Shown: positions 1 to 19,341 of the stretch, piece by piece
Numbering within the stretch: the first letter of the stretch is position 1
How the letters are laid out: each line of letters starts with the position of its first letter
Virus record (IMG/VR): IMGVR_UViG_3300042898_001051
Location: 1 to 20,349 of that record
Origin: a virus
Strand: one strand, 5' to 3'
Length of the DNA stretch: 20,349 nucleotides
Made by a program: the position numbers and the translations under genes
The notes under the pieces: model-generated
What the model saw: the letters and a program-made list of their open reading frames with translations, nothing else
Told to the model about the DNA's origin: nothing
Database searches by the model: none

Positions 1-248
1 AAAGCTGGAACCATTGCTTTGAATTGGTCGCCCATTTCTGTATAGAAATCTTTGCTTGTAAAAATCATACCTAAAGCCATCATTGATTGCATTCCTGCAT
101 CTGCGGCTGATTTAGTGTATTTTGATTGTGCATCAATAAAACCATTCAATGCTGTTTTGATGCCTTCGTGTTGAACTGTTTGTTCTACGAATTGTTTTTT
201 GAAGTCTGAAACGCCATCGATAAAGGCGTAAGTTGCTGTGTTAAACAT
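1..248 (-). CDS. Phasin-like protein, 3'-truncated by window edge
   Basis: 82 codons are visible from ATG at 248. A strong Shine-Dalgarno (AGGAGA, 251-262 region) sits about 5 bases upstream. The frame was read by hand and runs off the window edge without a stop. The visible protein is helical in character and contains FIDAQSKYTKSAADAG around residues 37-52, which resembles the amphipathic helix of phasins, proteins that coat polyhydroxyalkanoate granules in the cytoplasm. No signal peptide or membrane segment is seen. It has its own promoter-like sequence and lies after a terminator, so it is transcribed separately from the upstream operon. If truly a phasin, it would be a metabolic gene acting on host carbon storage. 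The phasin call rests on sequence resemblance only, and the C-terminal half is missing, so another helical protein is possible. Confidence 0.6.
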   Translation of the reverse strand, partial: MFNTATYAFIDGVSDFKKQFVEQTVQHEGIKTALNGFIDAQSKYTKSAADAGMQSMMALGMIFTSKDFYTEMGDQFKAMVPA

Positions 249-324
249 AATTTTCTCCTGTGTAAGTGTGTTTAAGTAGATTTTTGAACAGATACTACAA
301 CTGTCTATTAGTATTTACACTAGT

Positions 325-3387: not shown

Positions 3388-3611
3388 TTTGAAAATTCTT
3401 CCCAAAACAGTTCGGTATCTTTAACTGTAGCAAAAGGCTTGAGCCAACCCTTCTCCATACATGTAGCAATAATTAGTCTATACTCTCTAGGACATTCGTT
3501 ACTTATTTCGACTCCTGCACGTGGTGCAATCTTGAAACCGTCTCTAAGTATAAACTTAGGATCACCCTTTTTGATGGTCCTCAGTGAAGATTTTGTAATT
3601 TCAATGTTCAT
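3384..3611 (-). CDS. Small hypothetical protein, 75 aa
   Basis: 75 residues from ATG at 3611, overlapping the exonuclease stop by 11 bases, to a stop overlapping the next start (ATGA). Visible pieces are KKGDPKFILRDGFKIAPRAG and ECPREYRLIIATCMEKGWLK. It is basic with a mixed alpha/beta pattern and two cysteines. No known domain. Tight coupling to the exonuclease suggests co-expression, but a functional link is not shown. Confidence 0.75.
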   Translation of the reverse strand: MNIEITKSSLRTIKKGDPKFILRDGFKIAPRAGVEISNECPREYRLIIATCMEKGWLKPFATVKDTELFWEEFSK

Positions 3612-4605
3612 TGAGTTGTCCTATGTATGGAGTATTAAGCCATTTAGCGTAAGCCTCAGCCTGCTCTGAGATTTTTGTCAGTTCATATTTGCCACAAAAT
3701 CTCATGAAGTGAATGCCAACTTGCCCTACGTGTGCAACAGACAATTCGTCCTTGATACGGTGGTCAACCGCGTCTTTGATTTCTTGAGGTTGTGCAGTAA
3801 GGTCAATTAACATACGGTTACGTTGATACGCATCACGTACACAAATTTCATTGTCATTGTGATCCATCCACTTCTGCAACATGAAATTGTTCCACTTGAA
3901 GCCCTGATTATTGCGATCCTCAAATGCTTCTTTGATACCTACTTTGTTTTTGCTACCGACCTCACGCACACCTGGGTAAGCACTGAAAACGTTATCGCCA
4001 CCGTCACCCCTAATGATCTTTTTGAATAGCAAATACTCGGGAGTATCCTCCATAAGTTTGGGCTTCTTCTCCTTAGTCAATACGGGTTTACCGTTATCTT
4101 TGAAGTATCCATTGAGGGTAATAAGTTCATTTGTGATGCCATTGTACTGGTGCACGTTTTCACTAATAAGCTGAACATAATCGGAATCAGAACTAACAAT
4201 GTAATGCGTATCATCGGGATGTAAATGTGCAAATCGTGCGATGAGGTCGTCTGCCTCAGCACGTTCATGACGGAGAACACTGACGTTAGTTTTCTCACGA
4301 AGGAATGTAGTGAACTTATCGTAAGTATCCCAAAACATCTGGTTTTCTTCGATTTCTTCCTCAGTCTGGGAAAGAGTATCCACAATGCGGTTCTTTTTAT
4401 ACGGCTCGTAAACGTCTTTGCGCCATGAACGACCCTCCAAGCAGAATACAACGTGGTCAATCTTATGATTGCGAACGACCATATTCACACTTGCGAGGGT
4501 TAGATGCAATGCCATTGCTACTTTCTCCTCTGCTGTACTGTTACGTGATGCAACGTGACGGGCACGGAAGAAAGTATTAGCTGTGTCAATGAGTGCGTAT
4601 TTCAT
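3601..4605 (-). CDS. 5'-3' exonuclease / flap endonuclease (T4 RNase H-like)
   Basis: 334 residues, cytoplasmic. FEN/PIN-type signatures: MKYALIDTANTFFRARH at the N-terminus (Asp7 as first metal ligand), a CLEGRSWRKDVYEPYKKNR region, RAEADDLIARF and IVSSDSDYVQLI in the middle, and IRGDGGDNVFSAYPGV as the helix-hairpin-helix/DNA-binding end. The family removes RNA primers and flaps during lagging-strand synthesis, as T4 RNase H does. ATG at 4605 was chosen over the TTG at 4632 because the predicted transcription start lies near 4635, and the MKYALID start matches family N-termini. No convincing Shine-Dalgarno is seen. It is the first gene of a long overlapping operon that ends at the terminator near 359-376. 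Confidence 0.88.
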   Translation of the reverse strand: MKYALIDTANTFFRARHVASRNSTAEEKVAMALHLTLASVNMVVRNHKIDHVVFCLEGRSWRKDVYEPYKKNRIVDTLSQTEEEIEENQMFWDTYDKFTTFLREKTNVSVLRHERAEADDLIARFAHLHPDDTHYIVSSDSDYVQLISENVHQYNGITNELITLNGYFKDNGKPVLTKEKKPKLMEDTPEYLLFKKIIRGDGGDNVFSAYPGVREVGSKNKVGIKEAFEDRNNQGFKWNNFMLQKWMDHNDNEICVRDAYQRNRMLIDLTAQPQEIKDAVDHRIKDELSVAHVGQVGIHFMRFCGKYELTKISEQAEAYAKWLNTPYIGQLNEH

Positions 4606-4641
4606 GTGAGGGGAATGTATATAGTTAGACAAGTAACGCTA

Positions 4642-6384: not shown

Positions 6385-6822
6385 TTAACTAACTTCCGTG
6401 CGTCCGTCGCCCAAATCTCTAGTTCTAATTACCCGAACATCGTCACGTTTGGTGGGGTCTGCTTGCTCTTGTTCATAGACTTCTAGGGCCACATTGCGGC
6501 AAACTGTCTGAAACCATCGGTCCACGATAACCGTTTCAGCTTCATTGGGCTTGATAGAGTAACCTGCACGTACCAAATTAGCAATGAACTTCTCATTCCA
6601 ATCTAGTTCAAATGCACCTGCATTAATATCATTAGGATTAAGGTCCATGCGAATTACATTAATGTATGGCTCACCTTTTTGTGTAGCTAACTCTTTTTCA
6701 GATAACTTAGGCTCTTGTTTAACCTCTTTGGGTTTACGTGGCTTTCGTTCTTTCTTTTGAGCAGGAGGAGGAGCAGGTGCTACCTCCTGCTTCTTAAACA
6801 TAGTTTTTAACTTATCAAACAT
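6385..6822 (-). CDS. Conserved phage hypothetical protein with Pro/Lys-rich N-terminus
   Basis: 145 residues from ATG at 6822 (MFDKLKTMFKKQEV). This start is preferred because GAGGA lies at a suitable distance; ATGs at 6828 and 6837 are possible. Residues up to about 45 are disordered, Ala/Pro then Lys/Arg/Glu-rich. The folded part contains KGEPYINVIRMDLNPNDI, AGAFELDWNEKFIANLVRAG and VDRWFQTVCRNVALEVYEQE, a pattern I associate with a conserved small protein of T4-like marine phages. No known activity. It overlaps the 3' end of uvsE by 8 bases and so is expressed with it. Confidence 0.78.
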   Translation of the reverse strand: MFDKLKTMFKKQEVAPAPPPAQKKERKPRKPKEVKQEPKLSEKELATQKGEPYINVIRMDLNPNDINAGAFELDWNEKFIANLVRAGYSIKPNEAETVIVDRWFQTVCRNVALEVYEQEQADPTKRDDVRVIRTRDLGDGRTEVS

Positions 6823-7840
6823 TAACATATTCCTCATATAGCTTGAAGCTGGCTAAGTTCTTAGCCTTTGACTCGCACATCATATCGAATTTATCGTAGA
6901 AGGTCATTGCCCAATCGTTCACAGCTTCGTTCCAATAGTAATCACTATGTGCCCGAAGTTTCTGCTTACTGTGTCCTGATTCAATCAACGCACCATGATT
7001 GGGTAACTGTGATCCGGAATGGCCGACGAGTATATCTTCGCGGCTAACACTGTAATGGAGAGTAGGGCGAACACCACGCCAACTATCAATAACCTGTTTA
7101 ACAAGGTCGTCATTATGGGAAATATAATTTCCCTCACGAATCCAATTGTGATGGATGTCCATGACCGTAGGTACGAGGTCAGATAATGATAAGCAGTCAG
7201 ATAGTCCATGTGTGTATTCCTCATTCTCTAGTGTAAGTGTGTTTCGTGCCTCGGGGCTAAGTCTACCAAACACATCTCTGATACCCTGAGGACCTTTACG
7301 ACCACTGATGTGAACGTTGATCTTCATGTCCTGAAACGTCTTGCCATAGCCCATAAATCTAGCCATGCTAGCATGATATTCGAATTCTTCAATACTCTTA
7401 TTTACTACTTCTTCACGGTCACTCGCTAAAACTACAAACTGATCGGGGTGAAACGACAAACGAACATTGTTTTGTCGTGCAGTCTCGCCGATGGGTGCCA
7501 TCCAACGTTCAAGACTAGATTGAATGTCAGGTTGATGCCAAAAGTCTTTGTAGTCATCATGGGTGTAGAAGCTGAACATGTCACTAGTGATACGCAACAT
7601 ACGCAGTGGTTCGGGTAGAGCGGCTACCTTTTTGACTAGTGCGTGTGTATTGAGAATGTTGGTCTTTGCAACATCAATGATTTTTTCCTCAACCTTAGAA
7701 CGATTATTGCGCTTTGCCCAAGCCATTGTAGTGCCGCCTGTATTGAGGCCCTCTGTACTGGCAATCTCGCCTTTCTTGTTGATTTCAGCCCATTTGCAAG
7801 CAAAGCCGATGCGTTTAGTAGTAATGTTGAAAGAGTGCAT
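6815..7840 (-). CDS. uvsE: UV damage endonuclease (UvsE/UVDE)
   Basis: 341 residues, close to the usual size. The TIM-barrel UVDE signatures appear in order: RIGFACKW at the N-terminus, ITSDMFSFYTH, RLSFHPDQFVVLASD, MKINVHISG, LTLENEEYTHG, VMDIHHNWI, LHYSVSR and HSDYYWNEA near the C-terminus. The His, Glu and Asp residues in these blocks match the family's metal site. The enzyme nicks DNA 5' of UV photoproducts and other lesions, in a repair route independent of UvrABC. ATG at 7840 (MHSFNITTKRIGF) is chosen because the family N-terminus begins here and a near-perfect promoter lies 29-57 bases upstream; the longer upstream reading would extend into that promoter. In a phage this would repair sunlight-damaged genomes on entry. 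Confidence 0.92.
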   Translation of the reverse strand: MHSFNITTKRIGFACKWAEINKKGEIASTEGLNTGGTTMAWAKRNNRSKVEEKIIDVAKTNILNTHALVKKVAALPEPLRMLRITSDMFSFYTHDDYKDFWHQPDIQSSLERWMAPIGETARQNNVRLSFHPDQFVVLASDREEVVNKSIEEFEYHASMARFMGYGKTFQDMKINVHISGRKGPQGIRDVFGRLSPEARNTLTLENEEYTHGLSDCLSLSDLVPTVMDIHHNWIREGNYISHNDDLVKQVIDSWRGVRPTLHYSVSREDILVGHSGSQLPNHGALIESGHSKQKLRAHSDYYWNEAVNDWAMTFYDKFDMMCESKAKNLASFKLYEEYVNV

Positions 7841-7854
7841 AAGAAGTCCAGAAT

Positions 7855-7862
7855 GATAAATA
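7855..7862 (+). promoter_or_regulatory. T4-like late promoter octamer (GATAAATA) for the cargo cassette
   Basis: GATAAATA fits the T4-type late consensus TATAAATA at seven of eight positions and the NATAAATA form reported for T4-like cyanophages. It is 53 bases upstream of ATG 7915 on the only plus-strand transcription unit. No good -35/-10 pair is seen for this direction, which fits late, phage-controlled expression. The motif is short, so chance is possible. Confidence 0.4.
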
Positions 7863-7868
7863 TTAGAT

Positions 7869-7897
7869 AGTATACAATAAGTCGTATTTATTGTCAA
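7869..7897 (-). promoter_or_regulatory. Near-consensus sigma70 promoter for uvsE
   Basis: Minus strand TTGACA (7897-7892), 17-base spacer, TATACT (7874-7869). The predicted start is near 7862, about 20 bases before the ATG at 7840. The spacer also contains AATAAATA (7892-7885), a late-type octamer on the same strand. Confidence 0.75.
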
Positions 7898-7914
7898 ATT
7901 TTACGGAAACCAGC

Positions 7915-9879
7915 ATGAAAATCAAACATTTAATGGAAGGCGCAGAGCCAAAATTAGCAGGAGCACCAGAGGGTATCCAAATTATGACACCTCAGCAATT
8001 CGTTGCTAGTGCAGGTGATATGCCCGGTGAAGAATCAGAAGAAGGTGTGGCGGAGGGCGTTAGAGATTTAGGATATGATGCACAATCTCTTATTATGAAG
8101 CTACGCCGAGATGTAGAAGAAAAAAGATTACAACCTACTCCACAAGCAGTATTAGCAGCCGCAAGAGAATTAGCAGGTGATATGGAGTTTGCTCCTCAAC
8201 TGTTAGTAAAACAAGTATTAGGACAAGGTGTGGCGGAAGGCTCTGAAAAAGCAGAAAAATACAAGGCACATTTGCTAAAGACAGCGCCACGGATAATGGA
8301 CTTTTTAGCCAAGACTGTTAAAGGATGGCGTCCCAGCGAACAAGAAATGTTGGGTGCTATTGATACTGCCTATACAGTTATGAAACATACTGGCGATGTT
8401 AAACAAGCAGGCAAGGCCATGATGGATGAGTTGAATACTCTACACAGAATGAGTCAGGGCCAGCAAGGTGTGGCAGAAGATACATTAGAAGAAGATGAAT
8501 ATGATAAAATGCTAAGAGATTTGTTGAAGGCAAGACCTGACTTGACTAAAAAATATGCCAAAGATGTTCAAAAGTCAAAAGATATTGAAAGTGGCAAAGA
8601 GTTAAACAAACTTGTTAAAAAGAATCCTGGTGTATTGAAAACATACAGTGATGCTGTAAAGAGAGATAAGAAACTAGGTGTGGCGGAAGGTCTAGAACAA
8701 TTAAACAGAATTCGTAAACTATCTGGCTTAGCTGAAGCTACAACATTACCAGCACAAACACGTGATTTGGGTAGCGATGAATTTCAAGACTATATGAAGC
8801 GTATCGTTGGTACACCTGATGTTGACAAACAAGGTAATGTTAAGACTGATAAGAAGGGCAATGAAAAGTATGTCTCTGGTAAAACAAAAACAGACAGATA
8901 TAAAATGCCTTATATCCATCGTAGTAGTGTAATTGAATACCTAGGTCCTGATGGAGAGACATACGATGAAGATAAGATTAAGCAATCATTAGCACAACGT
9001 CCTAAAAATTTGCTAAAGCAAAACGAAAAGATGAAGCACAGTAACGGAGAGTTTGAACAATTCTTCAACGTTGGCTTTGCCGCATTAACAGGTATCGCAT
9101 TAGATGAAGATACAAACAAACTAATCATTGTAAACACATGTCCAGGCGCTGGTTCATGTAAAGTAGATTGTTTCGCTATGAAGGGTGGCAAAGTTCAGTT
9201 CAAGGCTGCTTGGCTAAGTGATGGTAGAATCTTAACATATCTATTGAACGACCCAGATGGTTTCTTCAATCAACTAAGTGCTGAAATTTCTAAAGAAGAG
9301 GCCGCAGGACAAAAGGGCGATAAGAAGTTTCCTAAGGGTTGGCAAACTACTATTCGCTGGCACGATGCCGGTGACTTCTTTAGTCCAGAATACTTAGACA
9401 TGGCACTGAAAATGGCTGCAAAGCATCCTGATACAAAATTCTATGCTTATACAAAGATGGCGGCGGCCGCATTAGCACAGAAGCCACCTAACTTCATTAT
9501 CAACTGGAGTGAAGGTGCTAACACAAGTCAAGAGAAACAAGTTAAAGCTACAGACGCTAACTTAGATACAACCAAGAACAGTCGTATTGTTCCTGATGAA
9601 ATATTCCAAGATTTGTTAGTTAAGGACGAAAAGAAAAACTTAGTTAAGGGAGAACAAGGCCAGTGGCAAGTACAACCTGACAAGTTACCTGAACTAAAAC
9701 AACGTCTTGCTAAAGAGTATGGATTAAGTAGTAATAGTATTCTAAACTACGATGAGTACATGGCTAAACGCAAATCAATACCTGCCGGTATGAAGTACAA
9801 TGTTATCGTTGCCCCAGGTGAAGGTGATATCAGTGCTAACGATCCCAACATTATATCTACATTACTATTGAAACACTAA
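7915..9879 (+). CDS. GP88-like Cys-cluster protein with cleavable leader and GVAEG-spaced modules
   Basis: 654 residues from ATG at 7915, preferred to TTG at 7891 because it exposes the leader MKIKHLMEG. Order: leader ending LME at residue 8; low-complexity to 43; GVAE(G/D) motifs at 44-48, 105-109, 185-189 and 255-259 separating helical modules of 55-75 residues; LNRIRKLSGLAEA (263-275) with a further LAE site; then a folded domain from about 285. That domain has NTCPGAGSCKVDCFAMKGG (407-425; Cys409, 415, 419 as C-x5-C-x3-C), RWHDAGDFFSPEYLD (481-495) and KFYAYTK (508-514). These blocks resemble the phage GP88 family and, more distantly, DUF5131/Gp37-like radical-SAM-type proteins; Fe-S binding is plausible but not shown. 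The biochemical role is unknown. It overlaps the next gene by one base (TAATG). Confidence 0.7.
   Translation: MKIKHLMEGAEPKLAGAPEGIQIMTPQQFVASAGDMPGEESEEGVAEGVRDLGYDAQSLIMKLRRDVEEKRLQPTPQAVLAAARELAGDMEFAPQLLVKQVLGQGVAEGSEKAEKYKAHLLKTAPRIMDFLAKTVKGWRPSEQEMLGAIDTAYTVMKHTGDVKQAGKAMMDELNTLHRMSQGQQGVAEDTLEEDEYDKMLRDLLKARPDLTKKYAKDVQKSKDIESGKELNKLVKKNPGVLKTYSDAVKRDKKLGVAEGLEQLNRIRKLSGLAEATTLPAQTRDLGSDEFQDYMKRIVGTPDVDKQGNVKTDKKGNEKYVSGKTKTDRYKMPYIHRSSVIEYLGPDGETYDEDKIKQSLAQRPKNLLKQNEKMKHSNGEFEQFFNVGFAALTGIALDEDTNKLIIVNTCPGAGSCKVDCFAMKGGKVQFKAAWLSDGRILTYLLNDPDGFFNQLSAEISKEEAAGQKGDKKFPKGWQTTIRWHDAGDFFSPEYLDMALKMAAKHPDTKFYAYTKMAAAALAQKPPNFIINWSEGANTSQEKQVKATDANLDTTKNSRIVPDEIFQDLLVKDEKKNLVKGEQGQWQVQPDKLPELKQRLAKEYGLSSNSILNYDEYMAKRKSIPAGMKYNVIVAPGEGDISANDPNIISTLLLKH
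8044..8057 (+). repeat. GGTGTGGCGGAAGG repeat, copy 1 (encodes GVAEG)
   Basis: GGTGTGGCGGAGGG, one difference from copies 2 and 4. In frame, encoding Gly-Val-Ala-Glu-Gly at a module boundary. GC-rich in an AT-rich gene. Confidence 0.85.
8227..8240 (+). repeat. GGTGTGGCGGAAGG repeat, copy 2
   Basis: Identical to copy 4 over 14 bases, 183 bases after copy 1. Encodes GVAEG at residues 105-109. Confidence 0.85.
8467..8480 (+). repeat. GGTGTGGCGGAAGG repeat, copy 3 (diverged)
   Basis: GGTGTGGCAGAAGA, two differences, encoding GVAED. 240 bases after copy 2. Confidence 0.8.
8677..8690 (+). repeat. GGTGTGGCGGAAGG repeat, copy 4
   Basis: Identical to copy 2, 210 bases after copy 3. Encodes GVAEG at residues 255-259, directly before the LNRIRKLSGLAEA stretch. 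A shorter relative (TGGCGGAA) occurs in the next gene around 10045, where it encodes the MAE of NMAETT. Confidence 0.85.
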
Positions 9880-10391
9880 TGAGAGCTACTGAATTTATAT
9901 CAGAACGTAGAAAATCTAGAAAAAAATCTAGAAAAATTCGCAGGGTAAGCGGATATTATTTTCCTGGTTATGGATACTACGGAGGTAGTGGAGACTCCGG
10001 TGAAGGCGGTGGAGACGGCGGTGGCGGAGAATCACAGTCAAACATGGCGGAAACTACCCATACACAATTGTGGCATGGAACATCTGAGCCAGTTGATGTT
10101 ATTCAACAGCAAGGTTTAAGAGGTGGTAGACACCATGCAGTATTTTTAACAGATAACCCTGACTTAGCATTAGAATATGCTGTGTCAGATCAAGAAAGAA
10201 CTGGTAATGATTATGTAACATTAATCACAATTGATGTAAATAAATTAGACCATAAAAAACTTGCAGGAGATTTGGATCATACTACAGTTGACAATTGGAT
10301 TGACAGTTTAAAAGAAACAGACCAATGTATGTATTTGGGTGATATATTACCTAGTATGATTATACAAGTTGAGGATTATACAGACCAATGA
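9879..10391 (+). CDS. ADP-ribosyltransferase-like protein with capsid-targeting-type leader
   Basis: 170 residues. The leader MRATEFISE (Ile-Ser-Glu at 7-9) is followed by a very basic stretch (RRKSRKKSRKIRR, 10-22), an aromatic/Gly-rich linker (25-50), then NMAETT (55-60) and a compact domain. That domain starts LWHGTSEP (64-71) and has QGLRGG (79-83), HHAVFLTDNPDLALEYA (85-101), LITIDVNKL (115-123) and LGDILPSMI. The HGT ... GL ... vFLT ... A-x-x-YA order is typical of small ADP-ribosyltransferase/KptA-type folds, which use NAD+. The final catalytic Glu or equivalent is not certain. T4 packages ADP-ribosyltransferase Alt in its head, so the combination of leader and ART-like domain is meaningful. 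Starts as TAATG and ends as ATGA with its neighbours. Confidence 0.6.
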   Translation: MRATEFISERRKSRKKSRKIRRVSGYYFPGYGYYGGSGDSGEGGGDGGGGESQSNMAETTHTQLWHGTSEPVDVIQQQGLRGGRHHAVFLTDNPDLALEYAVSDQERTGNDYVTLITIDVNKLDHKKLAGDLDHTTVDNWIDSLKETDQCMYLGDILPSMIIQVEDYTDQ

Positions 10392-11377
10392 GAGCAAGTG
10401 ACTTCATTACTGAAGAAGCCAAATCCGCTAAGTACAACGGTTTGGGTATGAAGTACGCCTTTAATGACAATGCTTTAATATTAAAGGCATTTTCAAAAGA
10501 AGGACCATTAGCATATGTAAAGTTTGTTAAAGAAGATAAAGAACTATATCCGCAGGATCTATGGGTCAATGATGAATATCGTAATCGTAGCATTGCTAAG
10601 TCAATGTATGACTTTTTAAAGGGTGAAGGTTATATCATCAATAGAAGTCACGATCAAACTAAAGCAGGCGCTGGTTTTTGGGACAAACATCGCGGTGAAG
10701 ATACTTATGTTTGGGAAGAAGAAGTACTAGATGAGATGCCATTGCCCGTTGATTGGGATCCTCAACAAATGCGTCAACAAGGCACAAGTTTCAAATCAAG
10801 ACTTGCTTATGCACTAGAAAGAGCAAAGAAGTTAGGTATTGGTTCTAGTCGTGTAGCTACAGTTATTGAATATCAAGGTCGTCCTACAGTATTAAAGATT
10901 GCTAAGAATCAAAAAGGTCTAGCACAGAATTCAGTAGAAGCAAGTATCTTAGAAGATGGCTATGCAAGTCAGTTAGGTATATTAATTCCATTGATTGACT
11001 ATGACGAACAAAATCGTGAACCTACTTGGATTCACACTGAGATGGCTACTAAGGCTAGTGAAAAGCAATTGTGTACTATTATGAAATGTGACAACCTAAG
11101 TCAGTTAGTTAGTATGGCATGGTCGATTACAGGTAAAAAGAAATATCTAGGAACCTATCAAGGATATGTAGATTATTTACGACAAAAAGGAAGAAGTGAA
11201 CAAGATATTGAAACGGTGACCGAATATGCTAACATATTAGCAGACCTAAACAGTAACTTTGATGTTGAATTAGCAGACTTCGGCCGAGCCGCAAACTGGG
11301 GACTCTATAAAGGAAAACCTACAATCATTGATGTAGGTTTCAATAGTAATGTTTTGAATCAATACTACAAGCGTTAA
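10388..11377 (+). CDS. GNAT-like / protein-kinase-like fusion with capsid-targeting-type leader
   Basis: 329 residues. Leader MRASDFITE (Ile-Thr-Glu at 7-9). Residues about 20-110 look like a GNAT acetyltransferase: LWVNDEYRNRSIAKSMYDFL (58-77) takes the acetyl-CoA loop position (degenerate RxxGxA), and GFWDKH is typical of the end. A VLDEMP hinge (113-118) contains an LxE site between the two parts. Residues about 150-320 are kinase-like: TVLKIAKN (167-174; candidate ATP Lys170), QNSVEA (180-185; candidate helix-C Glu184), ELADFGRAANWGLYKGKPT (294-312; candidate Asp297 and Asn303) and IIDVGF (313-318; metal Asp315). The Asp-to-Asn spacing is one longer than usual, so activity is uncertain. 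ATGA-coupled to the ART-like gene. Its stop overlaps that of the convergent galE-like gene. Confidence 0.55.
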   Translation: MRASDFITEEAKSAKYNGLGMKYAFNDNALILKAFSKEGPLAYVKFVKEDKELYPQDLWVNDEYRNRSIAKSMYDFLKGEGYIINRSHDQTKAGAGFWDKHRGEDTYVWEEEVLDEMPLPVDWDPQQMRQQGTSFKSRLAYALERAKKLGIGSSRVATVIEYQGRPTVLKIAKNQKGLAQNSVEASILEDGYASQLGILIPLIDYDEQNREPTWIHTEMATKASEKQLCTIMKCDNLSQLVSMAWSITGKKKYLGTYQGYVDYLRQKGRSEQDIETVTEYANILADLNSNFDVELADFGRAANWGLYKGKPTIIDVGFNSNVLNQYYKR

Positions 11378-13759: not shown

Positions 13760-13944
13760 TACCAGCTACTTACATCAGTGATGTCAACAACTACTGATTT
13801 GGGATTGTATTCCATTTTTGTAGTTGGACCAATACCTGATTCATGTGTTTCAATAATTGATACTTGTTCCACTGTATCATACATATCAAACACTTCTTTT
13901 AATCTTTCAAACTGCATTCGTGTGATTGTAATTTTTGTCATCAT
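13759..13944 (-). CDS. Small conserved phage hypothetical protein (ESGIGP motif)
   Basis: 61 residues from ATG at 13944, chosen for its ATGA overlap with queE. Helix-rich start (RMQFERLKEVFDMYD), then VSIIETHESGIGPTTKMEY and a closing VVVDITDVSSW. The HESGIGP piece is a pattern I associate with small phage proteins, without known function. Its place between queE and the sugar genes gives no firm clue. Confidence 0.75.
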   Translation of the reverse strand: MMTKITITRMQFERLKEVFDMYDTVEQVSIIETHESGIGPTTKMEYNPKSVVVDITDVSSW

Positions 13945-14792
13945 GTTCCCCACTCGTTTTTAAACAATGGCACTTGCAATCTGTCGCTATAACGCAACCC
14001 ATTCTTCATTGCAAGTTCTGCGACTTTTCGATTGTTCATGCTATACACACTCTCAACACCACCAACAGGCATGAGATATACAGAACCAAAGAAGCCAGCT
14101 TTGCGATATTCGTTAATAACGTCTAACGCTTCTTCAACATCTTCTTCGGTTGCTACTACCAACTTAAGATAAGTGTGACCATACAATTCATACTCACGCA
14201 CAATCTCAGGACATATAGCTTCTGAACGTTTCTCGCCGCTACCTGACAACTTAGCACTTACACTAAAAGTAAGAGTATCAATGCCTTTGTTTTTATGCCA
14301 ATTCGTTTGTAAGAACTTTTTGAAATCTTCGTGCAACTCTTGTGTACCATTAGTTTCAAAAGTCAACTCTTTCAAGTTAACCATCTTCTCATGAGATAAC
14401 AACTCAGGATAAACACGTTGCCATCCTAATAGCGGTTCACCACCCGTGATAACCAAGTGCTCATCATGCCAACTATTGAATGGGAGTATATCCATAATGC
14501 TACCAACAATAGTATCGGTAGTGAGCACAGGACTAAGATGTTTAAAACGAGGGTCCCAAGATGCATAAGAGTCACATCCCGTACTGACAAGTGGTAAGGA
14601 TTTATAATCCTTATAATCTTCTGCTTTAATTGCAATAACATCTCTCTCACCGCTCAACTCTTCCTTAGGCATGCCGAATCCACCACATGTAAAATTGCAT
14701 CCAAAGACTCGTAGAAACACAGACGGGACGCCCATGAATCTACCCTCACCTTGAATGCTATAAAATAACTCTGATACTTTTAAATGACTCAT
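13941..14792 (-). CDS. queE: 7-carboxy-7-deazaguanine synthase, phage-type (radical SAM)
   Basis: 283 residues. QueE signatures: ELFYSIQGEGRFMGVPSVFL at the N-terminus, GCNFTC (Cys32, Cys36), GGEPLL (117-122), FETNGT and YLKLVV. It converts 6-carboxy-tetrahydropterin to 7-carboxy-7-deazaguanine with a 4Fe-4S cluster and SAM. The canonical CX3CX2C is interrupted: 36 residues lie between the second Cys and the likely third (Cys73 in TGCDSYASWD), a form I recall from other phage QueE proteins. ATGA overlap with dadA. Its partners FolE and QueD are also in this window; QueC was not found. The product could feed DNA modification (preQ0 or related bases) or host tRNA queuosine. Confidence 0.9.
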   Translation of the reverse strand: MSHLKVSELFYSIQGEGRFMGVPSVFLRVFGCNFTCGGFGMPKEELSGERDVIAIKAEDYKDYKSLPLVSTGCDSYASWDPRFKHLSPVLTTDTIVGSIMDILPFNSWHDEHLVITGGEPLLGWQRVYPELLSHEKMVNLKELTFETNGTQELHEDFKKFLQTNWHKNKGIDTLTFSVSAKLSGSGEKRSEAICPEIVREYELYGHTYLKLVVATEEDVEEALDVINEYRKAGFFGSVYLMPVGGVESVYSMNNRKVAELAMKNGLRYSDRLQVPLFKNEWGT

Positions 14793-16060
14793 ATTTGTTC
14801 CGAAATAAGTTTTGCTGTGTATGGTGCTAAGGTCCAGCCTAAGTGACCATGTCCTGTATTATAGAACACTTTTGAGTTTTTGTCACTACATTTGGTAATA
14901 GGCATCATGTTAGGAGTCATCGGTCTGAGACATGCCCAACTGCTATAATCACTTGTATCCATATTTGGGAAATTAGTTCTTACCCAATCTAGCAATGGTT
15001 TGATTCTATCATGCCTAATATCGTAGTTCTCACCTGCAAGTTCAGCAGTACCTGCGACACGGAATCTATTGCCTAATGTTGAGGTAACAATCTTTGCTTG
15101 GTCATCCAATAAACTAACAATAGGTAAATGTTTCTTGTTTACGTTGTTGATGGTGATTGAGTAACCTTTGACCGGATAAACGTCAATAGAGTCGCCCACT
15201 GTCTTTGCTAATGCCCTGCTACCCACACCATTACTAATAACTACTGCATCATATAATGAAACTTCTTCGATATGATTGATTTTCCAGTTATACTCAAATA
15301 TAACACCGTATTTCTTTTCTAATACTTTTGCAAGTTCAGTGCAGAATTTATGAATGTCACCAGTCCAATCACTCAATGTCCAAGCACCACCTACGATGCC
15401 AACGATATGTTCTAGTCTACTGTCTAGTTCTTTAACTCTTTGAGAGTCAACAATGTCCCACTCGCAACCATTCTTACGATAGATGTATTGTGCTTCTTTT
15501 GCAGCCTCAAAGTATTGTTCGTCTTTATATAAGTGAAGAATGCCTGAGGGTGATTGGTCGAATGATAATCTTTCAGCGTACATAATCTCTTTGTACAACT
15601 TACTAGACTCTAGCCCCATCTTAATTGTTTCGCTAGTGTTCTTTTCATACTGATTGGTAATAGTATTATACAAAAACTTAGCGATCCACTTCCATTGATT
15701 AAAATCTAAACGAGGACGAATCAATAATGGAGCATCTTTCTTAAAGAGCCATTTGATGCCCTTCTTGACATTGCTCCATGTAGTCCATACTTCGCTGTTA
15801 CTTACAGAGACTTGGCCACCATTAGCAAAGCTAGTTCGCATTGCCGCATGCGGTTCTTGTTCGTATACAGTTATTTGATAACCCTTTTTAGCAAGGTAAT
15901 ATGCTGTTGTGATGCCGGTGATGCCGGCACCAATAACTGCTACTTTTTTAGGTATTCTATTTCGACCTTTGACAAACTCATCATACTTTTCTTGTGTACC
16001 TATGCTGTACCCACCGTCGCCGGCGTGCAGTTCGGCACCTGCTTTAATGTTTTCGTTCAC
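14789..16060 (-). CDS. dadA: FAD-dependent D-amino acid dehydrogenase-like (DadA family)
   Basis: 423 residues. FAD dinucleotide-binding VAVIGAGITGITTAYYLAKK (40-59), acidic end VYEQEP, ANGGQVSVSNSEVW, a VYPVKGYSITI substrate-side block, CLRPMTPNMMPI and a C-terminal TGHGHLGWTLAPYTAKLIS. This matches DadA, which deaminates D-amino acids to keto acids and passes electrons to the respiratory chain. There is an extra N-terminal segment of about 38 residues (Gly-rich) not typical of the family. The start is GTG at 16060, overlapping the queD stop as GTGA, and the end overlaps queE as ATGA. Lying between two 7-deazaguanine genes is unexpected: it could be an accessory redox enzyme for that pathway or separate D-amino-acid metabolism. 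Substrate not known. Confidence 0.82.
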   Translation of the reverse strand: MNENIKAGAELHAGDGGYSIGTQEKYDEFVKGRNRIPKKVAVIGAGITGITTAYYLAKKGYQITVYEQEPHAAMRTSFANGGQVSVSNSEVWTTWSNVKKGIKWLFKKDAPLLIRPRLDFNQWKWIAKFLYNTITNQYEKNTSETIKMGLESSKLYKEIMYAERLSFDQSPSGILHLYKDEQYFEAAKEAQYIYRKNGCEWDIVDSQRVKELDSRLEHIVGIVGGAWTLSDWTGDIHKFCTELAKVLEKKYGVIFEYNWKINHIEEVSLYDAVVISNGVGSRALAKTVGDSIDVYPVKGYSITINNVNKKHLPIVSLLDDQAKIVTSTLGNRFRVAGTAELAGENYDIRHDRIKPLLDWVRTNFPNMDTSDYSSWACLRPMTPNMMPITKCSDKNSKVFYNTGHGHLGWTLAPYTAKLISEQI

Positions 16061-16560
16061 GCAAGTAAGTCCTCATTCCATTCACGATGACCTTCACGGT
16101 AAGCCATGTTGCTTTGTGTCTCACGCACTTCTACACGATAGCACCATAGACGTTCTGCTTCACCTGGACCCCACATATCAGGAATATAAACACCATTGAC
16201 ATACTTATAAAGCATATCAGCTAATGATTCGCATCCAATTCTAGGTAGAATGGTTAGTTTAGCTAGTTTCTTTTCTTGCAACATTTTGAATGTTTCAAGT
16301 TCAGGATCGTCTTGTGCGACTAATAGAGTATGGTCAAACTGATCCTCAAGAATCTTTTTCAATTCTTTAAGTCCACCATAATCTGCCGCCCAATTGCGTA
16401 CATCTAGGTCGTTTGTGCCGAAATAGAATTTCATACTGAAACTATACCCATGAATCATATTGCAGTGACTGTCTGCTCTCCATTGACGATAAGCGCAAGG
16501 GAATGAATCATGGTACTCTTTAGTACTTGTAAATTTGTAACTGACTGGTTGTAATGACAT
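16057..16560 (-). CDS. queD: 6-carboxy-tetrahydropterin synthase-like (QueD), variant metal site
   Basis: 167 residues. Conserved parts: SHCNMIHGYS (31-40), NWAADYGGLKELKK (56-69), FDHTLLVAQDDP (75-86; catalytic Asp/His) and GCESLADML (109-117; Glu111). It makes 6-carboxy-tetrahydropterin from dihydroneopterin triphosphate, the step before QueE. Two of the three usual zinc histidines appear changed: PCAYRQW has Tyr24 where the first His normally lies, and the HGH pair reads HGY (Tyr39), leaving His37. I recall similar HGY and xRQW forms in other marine phages, so this may be a phage subfamily instead of a dead enzyme. Strong Shine-Dalgarno (AGGAGA) and an extended -10 promoter upstream. First gene of the que-dadA-sugar operon. 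Confidence 0.85.
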   Translation of the reverse strand: MSLQPVSYKFTSTKEYHDSFPCAYRQWRADSHCNMIHGYSFSMKFYFGTNDLDVRNWAADYGGLKELKKILEDQFDHTLLVAQDDPELETFKMLQEKKLAKLTILPRIGCESLADMLYKYVNGVYIPDMWGPGEAERLWCYRVEVRETQSNMAYREGHREWNEDLLA

Positions 16561-18535: not shown

Positions 18536-18664
18536 TTATTCCTTTGTAACACAATTACAGTTGCGACCTTGATTACAATCTCCGATGCAACTGCTAGGTG
18601 GTAATCTGCGAACAATAGAAATAGCAATGACTGCTACTAATACAATCAATAGTAAAGTAATCAT
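18536..18664 (-). CDS. Small Cys-rich single-pass membrane protein, 42 aa
   Basis: Read by hand: ATG at 18664 (overlapping the folE stop as ATGA) to TAA at 18536. Residues 2-18 (ITLLLIVLVAVIAISIV) form one hydrophobic membrane helix, followed by RRLPPS and a tail with four cysteines (26, 30, 36, 38) in a C-x3-C-x5-C-x-C order, with GDCNQGRNCNC as the core. Basic residues just after the helix suggest the tail stays in the cytoplasm. The Cys order could bind a metal or form disulfides. I believe short phage proteins with GDCxQGRNC tails exist, but I know no function. Confidence 0.78.
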   Translation of the reverse strand: MITLLLIVLVAVIAISIVRRLPPSSCIGDCNQGRNCNCVTKE

Positions 18665-19341
18665 TTGCATCCTTTGTTAGCAATCTGTAAAAACTCTTGT
18701 CTTGCGGCTGGGTCAGTTTTGAAACCACCACCTAAACGACAAGTAACAGTACTACTGCCTGTATCTTCTACACCACGACTCTTAACACAATAGTGTTGAG
18801 CATCAATCATAACTGCAACATCTTCTGTATCAAGGATGAACTGTAAGGTGTGAAATATCTGCTCTGTTAAACGTTCCTGAATTTGCGGACGTTTACTGAA
18901 ATATTCTACTATACGGTTGATCTTACTAAGCCCTAAAACTTTTTGTTTAGGGACATAAGCTACAGTAGCCAATCCATCAATGATTACAAAATGATGTTCG
19001 CAGTTAGATTGAACATTAACATTACGCTCTACAACCATTTCGTTGTATTGCATCTTGTTGTCAACTGTTGTACATTTAGGGAATGCTTCATAGTCTAGAC
19101 CCCAAAAGATTTCATTCACATACATCTTAGCAACACGCTTGGGTGTTTCAATTAGACTATCATCGGATAAATCTAATCCAAGATATTGCATGATAATAGT
19201 GAAGTGTTCTTCGATACGATCAATCTTATCTTTTCTGTCTAAGTTGTTTGGCAGTGTAGGTGTCTCAACACCCATTTTGACCAAGTATTCGTGTACTTGT
19301 TGACCCAACTCAGGGTCGCATTTTGTTTTGTTATATGACAT
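18661..19341 (-). CDS. folE: GTP cyclohydrolase I
   Basis: 226 residues, about the family length. Zinc ligands are present: SNCEHHF (Cys114, His117) and HYCVKSRGVED (Cys185); ETPKRVAKMY (65-74), VLGLSKINRIVEYFSKRPQ (135-153) and the STVTCRLGG end are typical. It converts GTP to dihydroneopterin triphosphate, the entry substrate of QueD, so it belongs functionally with queD and queE further downstream although a separate promoter lies between. The start has a strong Shine-Dalgarno (AAGGAAGG). A perfect TATAAATA is about 62 bases upstream. Confidence 0.93.
   Translation of the reverse strand: MSYNKTKCDPELGQQVHEYLVKMGVETPTLPNNLDRKDKIDRIEEHFTIIMQYLGLDLSDDSLIETPKRVAKMYVNEIFWGLDYEAFPKCTTVDNKMQYNEMVVERNVNVQSNCEHHFVIIDGLATVAYVPKQKVLGLSKINRIVEYFSKRPQIQERLTEQIFHTLQFILDTEDVAVMIDAQHYCVKSRGVEDTGSSTVTCRLGGGFKTDPAARQEFLQIANKGCK

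Follow-up and report, generated by a model that had tools for sequence, protein, structure and literature searches.

A viral contig that ends inside an apparent phasin gene raises the question of whether its phage carries a phasin-like protein and what such a protein would do in the infected cell. The DNA analysed here (the window) is the whole of an IMG/VR record, a viral fragment of 20,349 bases, in which the gene concerned, called PHA below, occupies positions 3 to 248 of the minus strand. The frame opens with an ATG at 248 and stays open to the contig end; the window thus holds the first 82 codons, while the remaining 9 and the stop codon fall past the contig end. The motif that the original prediction had singled out is real: it is encoded in the ATG frame by the codons for FIDAQSKYTKSAADAG (residues 37-52; positions 93 to 140, minus strand), which the translation and our alignments identify as the core motif aligned to phasins, and it is part of a conserved phage gene. 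The 3′ part of the gene, which the prediction had named as the first thing to obtain, was supplied by a relative (L001) identical to the window over all 82 residues; this copy ends in ...NVKKTKAK and brings the protein to 91 amino acids.

Searches of viral contigs returned 114 related places, and the frame is therefore not a chance one. We kept 80 of these loci, which are 84-100% identical. The stop codon is visible in 79 of the 80, the remaining copy (L070) being cut at its 3′ end, while another (L079) is cut at the 5′ end and its first residues are absent; complete proteins among the kept loci have 88-95 amino acids. A tblastn search of 50,697 phage records with the window protein gave no match. 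Fifteen more divergent proteins, with 23-70% identity to L001, could be aligned, and over 26 members of this wider family D11, K17 and Q41 are invariant and K18, F37, D39, Y44, T45 and K46 nearly so. The last eight residues include 2-4 Lys/Arg in every one of the 26. These results confirm that PHA is a genuine, conserved and widespread phage gene, carried by a group of large environmental phages.

To family libraries the protein is not a recognizable phasin. The window protein matched no phasin in Pfam, PHROGs or NCBIfam and no Pfam family at all, and no Pfam phasin model matched any of 19 close relatives, whose profile is uninformative because the sequences are too alike. Among the 26 phage members that make up our wider-family profile, Phasin_2 (PF09361) was matched more often than any other Pfam family (E≤0.05), namely by five members with a best E-value of 9.2e-5. 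The bit scores of these five matches (17.3-23.0) all fall below the Pfam cut-off of 24.9, and the matches lie in two different registers. The NCBIfam phasin model TIGR01841 matched a single member of the 26 (E 0.044), and three unrelated families each matched more, namely NadS (four members, best 0.001), a pantothenate kinase model (four, best 0.0024) and EutK (two, best 0.037). A PF09361 search of 33 viral records at E≤10 found nothing, a tblastn search of the 50,697 phage records with two phasins gave no match, and peptide-pattern searches revealed neither a bacterial relative of the window clade nor, in viral contigs, an alphaproteobacterial-type phasin. The window protein and the relatives tested are not Pfam-grade Phasin_2 members.

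Profiles were also compared with genomes and with phasin alignments. The test least open to bias was a search with the wider-family profile through 398 whole genomes of one phylum, that of a Bosea genome (G036). It gave matches in 13 at a per-genome E≤0.1, the majority of the genomes having none. Of the 13 matching proteins we retrieved 12 and scanned 10 of these with Pfam; the two set aside (L487 and L489) look like a third, L490, which is a chemoreceptor. Six of the 10 scanned proteins, including the four best matches, are Phasin_2 proteins with scores of 83-93 bits, the others being a DsbA protein, a trigger factor, the chemoreceptor and an MMPL protein. The best single E-value in this search, 0.0011, is unimpressive alone, and it is the concentration on one family that counts. 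Because phasins took the top four ranks with the wider profile and made up six of the 10 proteins scanned, we regard a distant homology of the PHA protein to Phasin_2 as well supported by the sequences and very probably correct. The narrower profile of the window clade gave unclassified hits in 14 of the 398 genomes at E≤0.5. Run over 14 records behind phasin loci, it matched a phasin gene on one small plasmid (E 0.0016) and nothing in the other 13, which are whole genomes.

When profiles were aligned directly, the close relatives scored 25.5 against ten alphaproteobacterial phasins (E 6e-4, probability 28%), with a collinear alignment of 61 columns that places K18 on the conserved phasin K41 and Q41 on the conserved Q67. 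None of 150 column shuffles reached this score (best 17.0); the reversed comparison, phasins against close relatives, gave 19.6 (E 0.0095), and decoys from 84 phage families did not exceed 18.5 with the same ten phasins or 19.5 with the close relatives. With a larger set of 90 phasins the score of the close relatives fell to 19.0, no better than the best decoy (19.1) and under the best of 100 shuffles (20.6). For the wider family it rose to 27.1 (best of 60 shuffles 14.6; best of the 84 phage families against the wider family 17.2), and the divergent members alone reached 29.3 with a probability of 54% (best of 60 shuffles 21.8). Betaproteobacterial phasins gave no match in any version of the profile. 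In the alignments to the retrieved phasins, the phage K(K)xF falls on KKSF and FvdaQteYtkkA on LQTxFaKsA. The likeness to Phasin_2, the alphaproteobacterial PhaP-type family, thus comprises a helical protein with a core Q-(T/S)-x-(Y/F)-x-K motif and an upstream KK in collinear order. The differences are the score below the Pfam cut-off, the Lys/Arg-bearing C-terminus and a shorter chain, the annotated phasins that we fetched having at least 105 residues. Of the predicted resemblance to a phasin helix, then, a distant homology holds and the flagged motif does align, but there is no match at the Pfam cut-off.

The prediction had further taken the gene as a pointer to the host group. The phasins that align are alphaproteobacterial, but no host was established, and this use of the gene is not yet borne out. 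The same gap weighs on a further reading of the core motif, in which the protein would be a decoy for a host granule regulator, competing with host phasins for granules and for the PhaR repressor and so shifting regulation instead of forming a structural coat. Such a role would follow from PhaR-phasin biology and would suit the resemblance of the core motif to the conserved phasin motif. Binding to PhaR is a proposal only, and we consider this reading very unlikely.

An AlphaFold2 model built from the wider alignment has three helices (residues 2-24, 28-64 and 66-88) with a mean pLDDT of 82.9, compared with 70.5 for a narrow alignment. In 17 of 26 members helix 2 has a hydrophobic moment above that of 95% of shuffles, as helix 1 has in six of 26; the helices appear mildly amphipathic, a modest degree that counts against a phasin. 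The top viral fold match for both models is a UniProt entry named ‘Phasin’ from an uncultured Caudovirales phage (A0A6J7WGJ6; 30% identity), with weak E-values of 0.011 for the first model and 0.0067 for the second. A ‘Phasin domain-containing protein’ of the same kind of phage (A0A6J5LP31; 24% identity) was the fourth-best viral fold match of the first model, also with a weak E-value (0.44), and was absent from the best 50 matches listed for the second. Comparisons with solved structures, including Foldseek, gave generic helical matches with a top Z of 8.2, and no phasin was among the matches listed. Since helical hairpins match one another readily, this last result would also suit a small, late and abundant helical hairpin that serves as a virion or assembly accessory protein, whose likeness to phasins is that of hairpin to hairpin. 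Chance likeness of this sort leaves unexplained why phasins were the four best matches in 398 genomes. No PHROG structural family was clearly matched, one tape-measure family being touched by two of 19 members (best E 0.0093), so that the case in which the full-length protein turns out to match a structural phage protein, named in advance as contrary to a phasin, did not appear in these scans. Moreover, the jumbo phage PA5oct, several of whose virion proteins have been annotated by mass spectrometry, lacks PHA. We consider a virion role improbable.

PA5oct is also the reference point for the lineage. The order of genes around PHA is largely conserved (exonuclease, the uncharacterised c17, c20 or c10, c3, c6, c2, c1 and c9, ..., PHA, c8, c4), with an Ala/Lys-rich protein often found between c9 and PHA and other genes coming and going in the block. 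In the window, all on the minus strand, the Ala/Lys-rich upstream neighbour with a signal-peptide-like start lies at 551 to 835, followed by the conserved neighbours c9 (923 to 1093), c1 (1090 to 1494) and c2 (1481 to 1780; sharing 47% identity with an uncharacterised PA5oct protein), then by c3 (1980 to 2438), also related to a PA5oct protein, and by an exonuclease/RNase H-like gene (3601 to 4632) that is 50% identical to its PA5oct counterpart and served as a marker of the phage lineage. The exonuclease, c3 and c2 are thus common to these blocks and to PA5oct-type jumbo phages (Arenbergviridae). Unlike the PHA phages, PA5oct gave no match to the window-clade profile over its whole genome; the genome of Sinorhizobium phage Phosso gave none either, and the 80 loci whose c2 is closest to that of PA5oct had no PHA within the flanks examined. 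In relatives of the PA5oct jumbo phages PHA occupies a constant position, and PA5oct itself is without the gene. Median identity within the block peaks at c2 (90%), which has a dN/dS of about 0.04 in unsaturated pairs and at least 524 relatives in viral contigs.

The sequence in front of PHA is conserved in its own right. In the window the 5′ leader (249 to 318, minus strand) matches our covariance model R1 with 50 bits and E 1.5e-8, a score obtained by construction because the model draws in part on L001, whose sequence there equals that of the window. The leader carries GTAAATA (312 to 318, minus strand) and, after an ACACAC-type stretch, the Shine-Dalgarno sequence AGGAG (255 to 259, minus strand), an arrangement shared with the leaders of relatives. 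The consensus of T4 late promoters is TATAAATA, and we take the ATAAATA of the relatives' PHA leaders, and with it the GTAAATA of the window, to be T4-late-promoter-like. Of 96 leaders, which are not independent of one another, 91 have an xTAAATA at a distance of 50-82 bases from the start codon; two of the five exceptions are cut by contig ends. Counting distinct leaders, ATAAATA is found in 45 of 51. Within the same interval ATAAATA precedes 73 of 76 window-clade PHA copies but only one copy among 662 from 11 neighbouring genes, and the looser xTAAATA also precedes c6 (48 of 64 copies) and the exonuclease (11 of 58). We judge it likely that PHA is expressed late and probably strongly. A late-type promoter with a strong ribosome-binding site would also be in keeping with a virion protein.

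The stretch after the promoter motif folds as an H-type pseudoknot. In the window, on the minus strand, stem 1 consists of TAGACAG (301 to 307) and CTGTTCA (285 to 291), with one mismatch and one G-U pair, and stem 2, as read from the sequence, of GTAG (295 to 298) and CTAC (276 to 279). Stem 2 of the window is shifted relative to the consensus columns; in the consensus register its pairing is incomplete, which makes the window copy a weak version. We examined covariation in 36 distinct leaders, chosen for the presence of the late-promoter-like motif and after exclusion of different-looking ones (L379, L424 and L439, which have a hairpin only, and L369, L434, L380 and L390). In this set 96.0% of the cells are paired, whereas shuffled columns give 84.2% and slid ones no more than 60.9%, and changes on both sides of a pair occur in 48 cells compared with 10.3; neither value was reached in any of 500 shuffles. 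The double changes fall at seven of the 12 pairs, with both stems represented. The PHA leader is an H-type pseudoknot with strong covariation, and leaders from five loci had no match in Rfam.

A covariance model of the leader's sequence and stem 1, run over 16 records with 150 candidates scored in the two largest, gave strong matches in 13, each in front of PHA. Because several of these leaders stood in the model's own alignment, the informative part is the scarcity of other matches: the best one away from PHA in the 13 records had an E-value of 0.003 (G001), PA5oct and Phosso had only weak matches (0.21 or worse), and a contig with an Hsp20-like gene beside c8 had none. The leader is near-specific for the PHA gene. 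One locus without PHA (L386) has a related leader, with late promoter and hairpin, directly before c8, and for this reason the leader seems tied to the pair of PHA and c8. A record of 524 kb (G027, locus L065) contains two copies of PHA with their leaders, at 49 kb and 484 kb on opposite strands, for which a duplication and a joined assembly are both possible.

A known system invites comparison. The leader of T4 gene 32, as described in a 2010 review (PMC3014915), has an H-type pseudoknot followed by a UUAAA-bearing stretch that leads to the ribosome-binding site, and to this extent the PHA leader, with its upstream pseudoknot and UUAAA-containing spacer, is alike. In contrast to gene 32, PHA has an ACACAC-rich spacer and a leader without an Rfam match, and its product was unrelated to an ssDNA-binding protein in all our searches. 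By analogy, feedback of the PHA product through the pseudoknot is a possibility. According to the same review the gene 32 pseudoknot is perhaps the sole viral example in translational autoregulation, and for this reason a second phage gene led by a pseudoknot is a direct test case, which makes the PHA leader of interest by itself. Its own late-type promoter and pseudoknot also set PHA apart from Phasin_2.

We then considered c8, the gene that accompanies PHA. A DNA pattern for c8 returned 103 stretches, 80 of which were listed and 77 represent new loci; 29 of the 77 are on contigs of our first PHA set and 48 on new contigs. A PHA homologue is present at 54 of the 77 loci (53 at E<1e-5 and L380 at 4e-4), an Hsp20-like gene stands directly before c8 at 15, and eight have neither. 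For the 48 new contigs the corresponding numbers are 27, 15 and six, and some of the stretches with neither gene are cut close to c8. Two loci (L386 and L393) have kept c2 and c8 and lack PHA, and in another (L390) c8 and PHA sit side by side but in the opposite order, with no other block gene detected in the contig. The c8 protein has the motif YG..LE.YI...NPQ...D(I/V)E, and two c8 proteins matched no Pfam family. The name Hsp20 is our reading of the sequence (examples beside c8 are L375, L388 and L423). The phage Hsp20-like gene holds the same position beside c8 as PHA, and its product, although unrelated to the PHA protein in sequence, would share a related biochemistry, the coating of hydrophobic surfaces.

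This arrangement bears on what the PHA protein might coat. If PHA occupies the place that Hsp20 has in other phages, the protein could be a late holdase of phasin ancestry whose clients are not polyhydroxyalkanoate granules but membranes, or phage or host proteins prone to aggregation, which it would shield. The 15 new c8 contigs with an Hsp20-like gene directly upstream, against 27 with PHA, speak for such a role, as does the overlap in function between small heat-shock proteins and phasins: PMC10646324 describes IbpA, a small heat-shock protein, as sitting on polyhydroxyalkanoate granules and calls it phasin-like. However, no other gene of the PHA block was detected in the Hsp20-c8 stretches, so that the swap is one by position beside c8 only. 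The (near) invariance of K18, Q41, Y44, T45 and K46 is, moreover, more specific than a general coat needs, and on balance we consider the holdase unlikely, though it is the alternative to be taken most seriously.

Comparison of PHA with its neighbours revealed an unusual pattern of conservation. Selection on PHA is purifying, with a median dN/dS of 0.26 over 300 pairs from 25 copies. Its median dS of 0.39 contrasts with 1.2-1.6 for c2, the exonuclease, c1 and c4, for which 56-193 of the 300 pairs were saturated and set aside, compared with none for PHA. At four-fold sites the median difference across 39 contigs is 0.125 for PHA and 0.571, 0.533 and 0.412 for c1, c2 and c4. The differences in PHA do not track those of the flanks, with rank correlations of -0.07, -0.09 and 0.14 to c1, c2 and c4, compared with flank-to-flank values of 0.45 (c1 with c2) and 0.13 (c2 with c4). 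Individual loci illustrate this. L434 and L380 have c1 at 77% and c2 at 90-91% identity to L061, yet their PHA copies are at 47% and 24%, while L425 has c1 at 42% and nevertheless PHA at 86%, although its exonuclease is also close, at 80%. We rejected constraint on the protein as the sole cause of PHA conservation, since four-fold sites show little change either, and phages with close flanks and a very different PHA copy contradict it. Codon constraint may explain part of the conservation. The simplest reading of these sequences, which we regard as quite probable, is that PHA alleles have been exchanged between phages independently of most neighbours, and this argues against a virion protein. 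The lower pooled Nc of PHA (35.8, compared with 38.8-47.9) was discarded as a sign of expression, since Nc falls when near-identical copies are pooled. The gene's own pseudoknot leader and its cassette-like exchange are the unexpected part of these results.

With these alternatives weighed, we return to the reading that we prefer, to which we assign a probability of about one half: a phage phasin, made late and probably in abundance, that would cover hydrophobic surfaces, possibly the polyhydroxyalkanoate granules of the host. According to PMC4117528, phasins are helical, oligomeric coats of polyhydroxyalkanoate granules. In our proposal a protein of about 91 residues, all-helical and mildly amphipathic, with a lysine-rich tail and a distant kinship to phasins, would be expressed late and strongly from its own late-type promoter, through the 5′ H-type pseudoknot, the ACACAC-type stretch and a strong ribosome-binding site. 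It would then coat hydrophobic surfaces of the infected cell, most likely host granules, which could control granule size or access to stored carbon; the benefit to the phage is one that we infer. The N-terminal domain of polyhydroxyalkanoate synthase (PhaC_N) was found in none of 34 records, many of them fragments, and because no PhaC was found there the protein, in a further difference from Phasin_2 genes, would act on granules of the host. PHA probably works like a phasin and is a good candidate for a phage gene acting on host storage granules; that the protein itself binds such granules we put forward tentatively, as somewhat less than an even chance. Among the titles listed in literature searches for phage-encoded phasins, none concerns a phage-borne phasin, a result that does not establish absence from print.

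By their sample numbers, many PHA-bearing contigs presumably come from fresh water. Large freshwater phages with pmoC are known; a methanotroph link through this gene was considered and dropped, as a search for AmoC in 34 records found none. Suitable aquatic hosts for a granule-coating protein do exist, since freshwater bacteria such as Polynucleobacter make both polyhydroxyalkanoate synthase and phasin, as stated in PMC7522526. The most elaborate version of our proposal would join a dedicated late operon of PHA and c8, behind a phage-specific 5′ pseudoknot, in large phages of polyhydroxyalkanoate-storing aquatic hosts, a granule coat whose level is set by feedback through the pseudoknot as in T4 gene 32, and an exchangeable cassette that spreads through strong selection for granule control, with Hsp20 as its equivalent elsewhere; as a whole we think it rather improbable.

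Several other features of the window deserve mention. A second minus-strand frame (367 to 660; ..LPDHILQRLAEIRHKALEKYRETWG) overlaps the Ala/Lys-rich frame at 551 to 835, and a dual-coding stretch is possible because this second frame clusters with frames in other loci. Farther along the minus strand are genes that we named by reading as QueE-like (13941 to 14792), 6-pyruvoyl-tetrahydropterin-synthase-like (16057 to 16560) and GTP-cyclohydrolase-like (18661 to 19341), a trio as in the deazaguanine pathway; near the related exonuclease, PA5oct has QueE and Phosso has QueE and FolE. An FAD-dependent oxidoreductase resembling D-amino-acid dehydrogenase (14789 to 16060) and a UvdE-like endonuclease (6815 to 7897), also on the minus strand and named by reading, are unusual phage cargo. 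Three plus-strand neighbours (7891 to 9879, 9879 to 10391 and 10388 to 11377) have similar short peptides at or close to their starts (MKIKHLMEGAE, MRATEFISERR and MRASDFITEEA), and the first of them contains several GVAE(G) repeats; these features are reminiscent of the sites for capsid targeting and for the prohead protease in T4 internal proteins.
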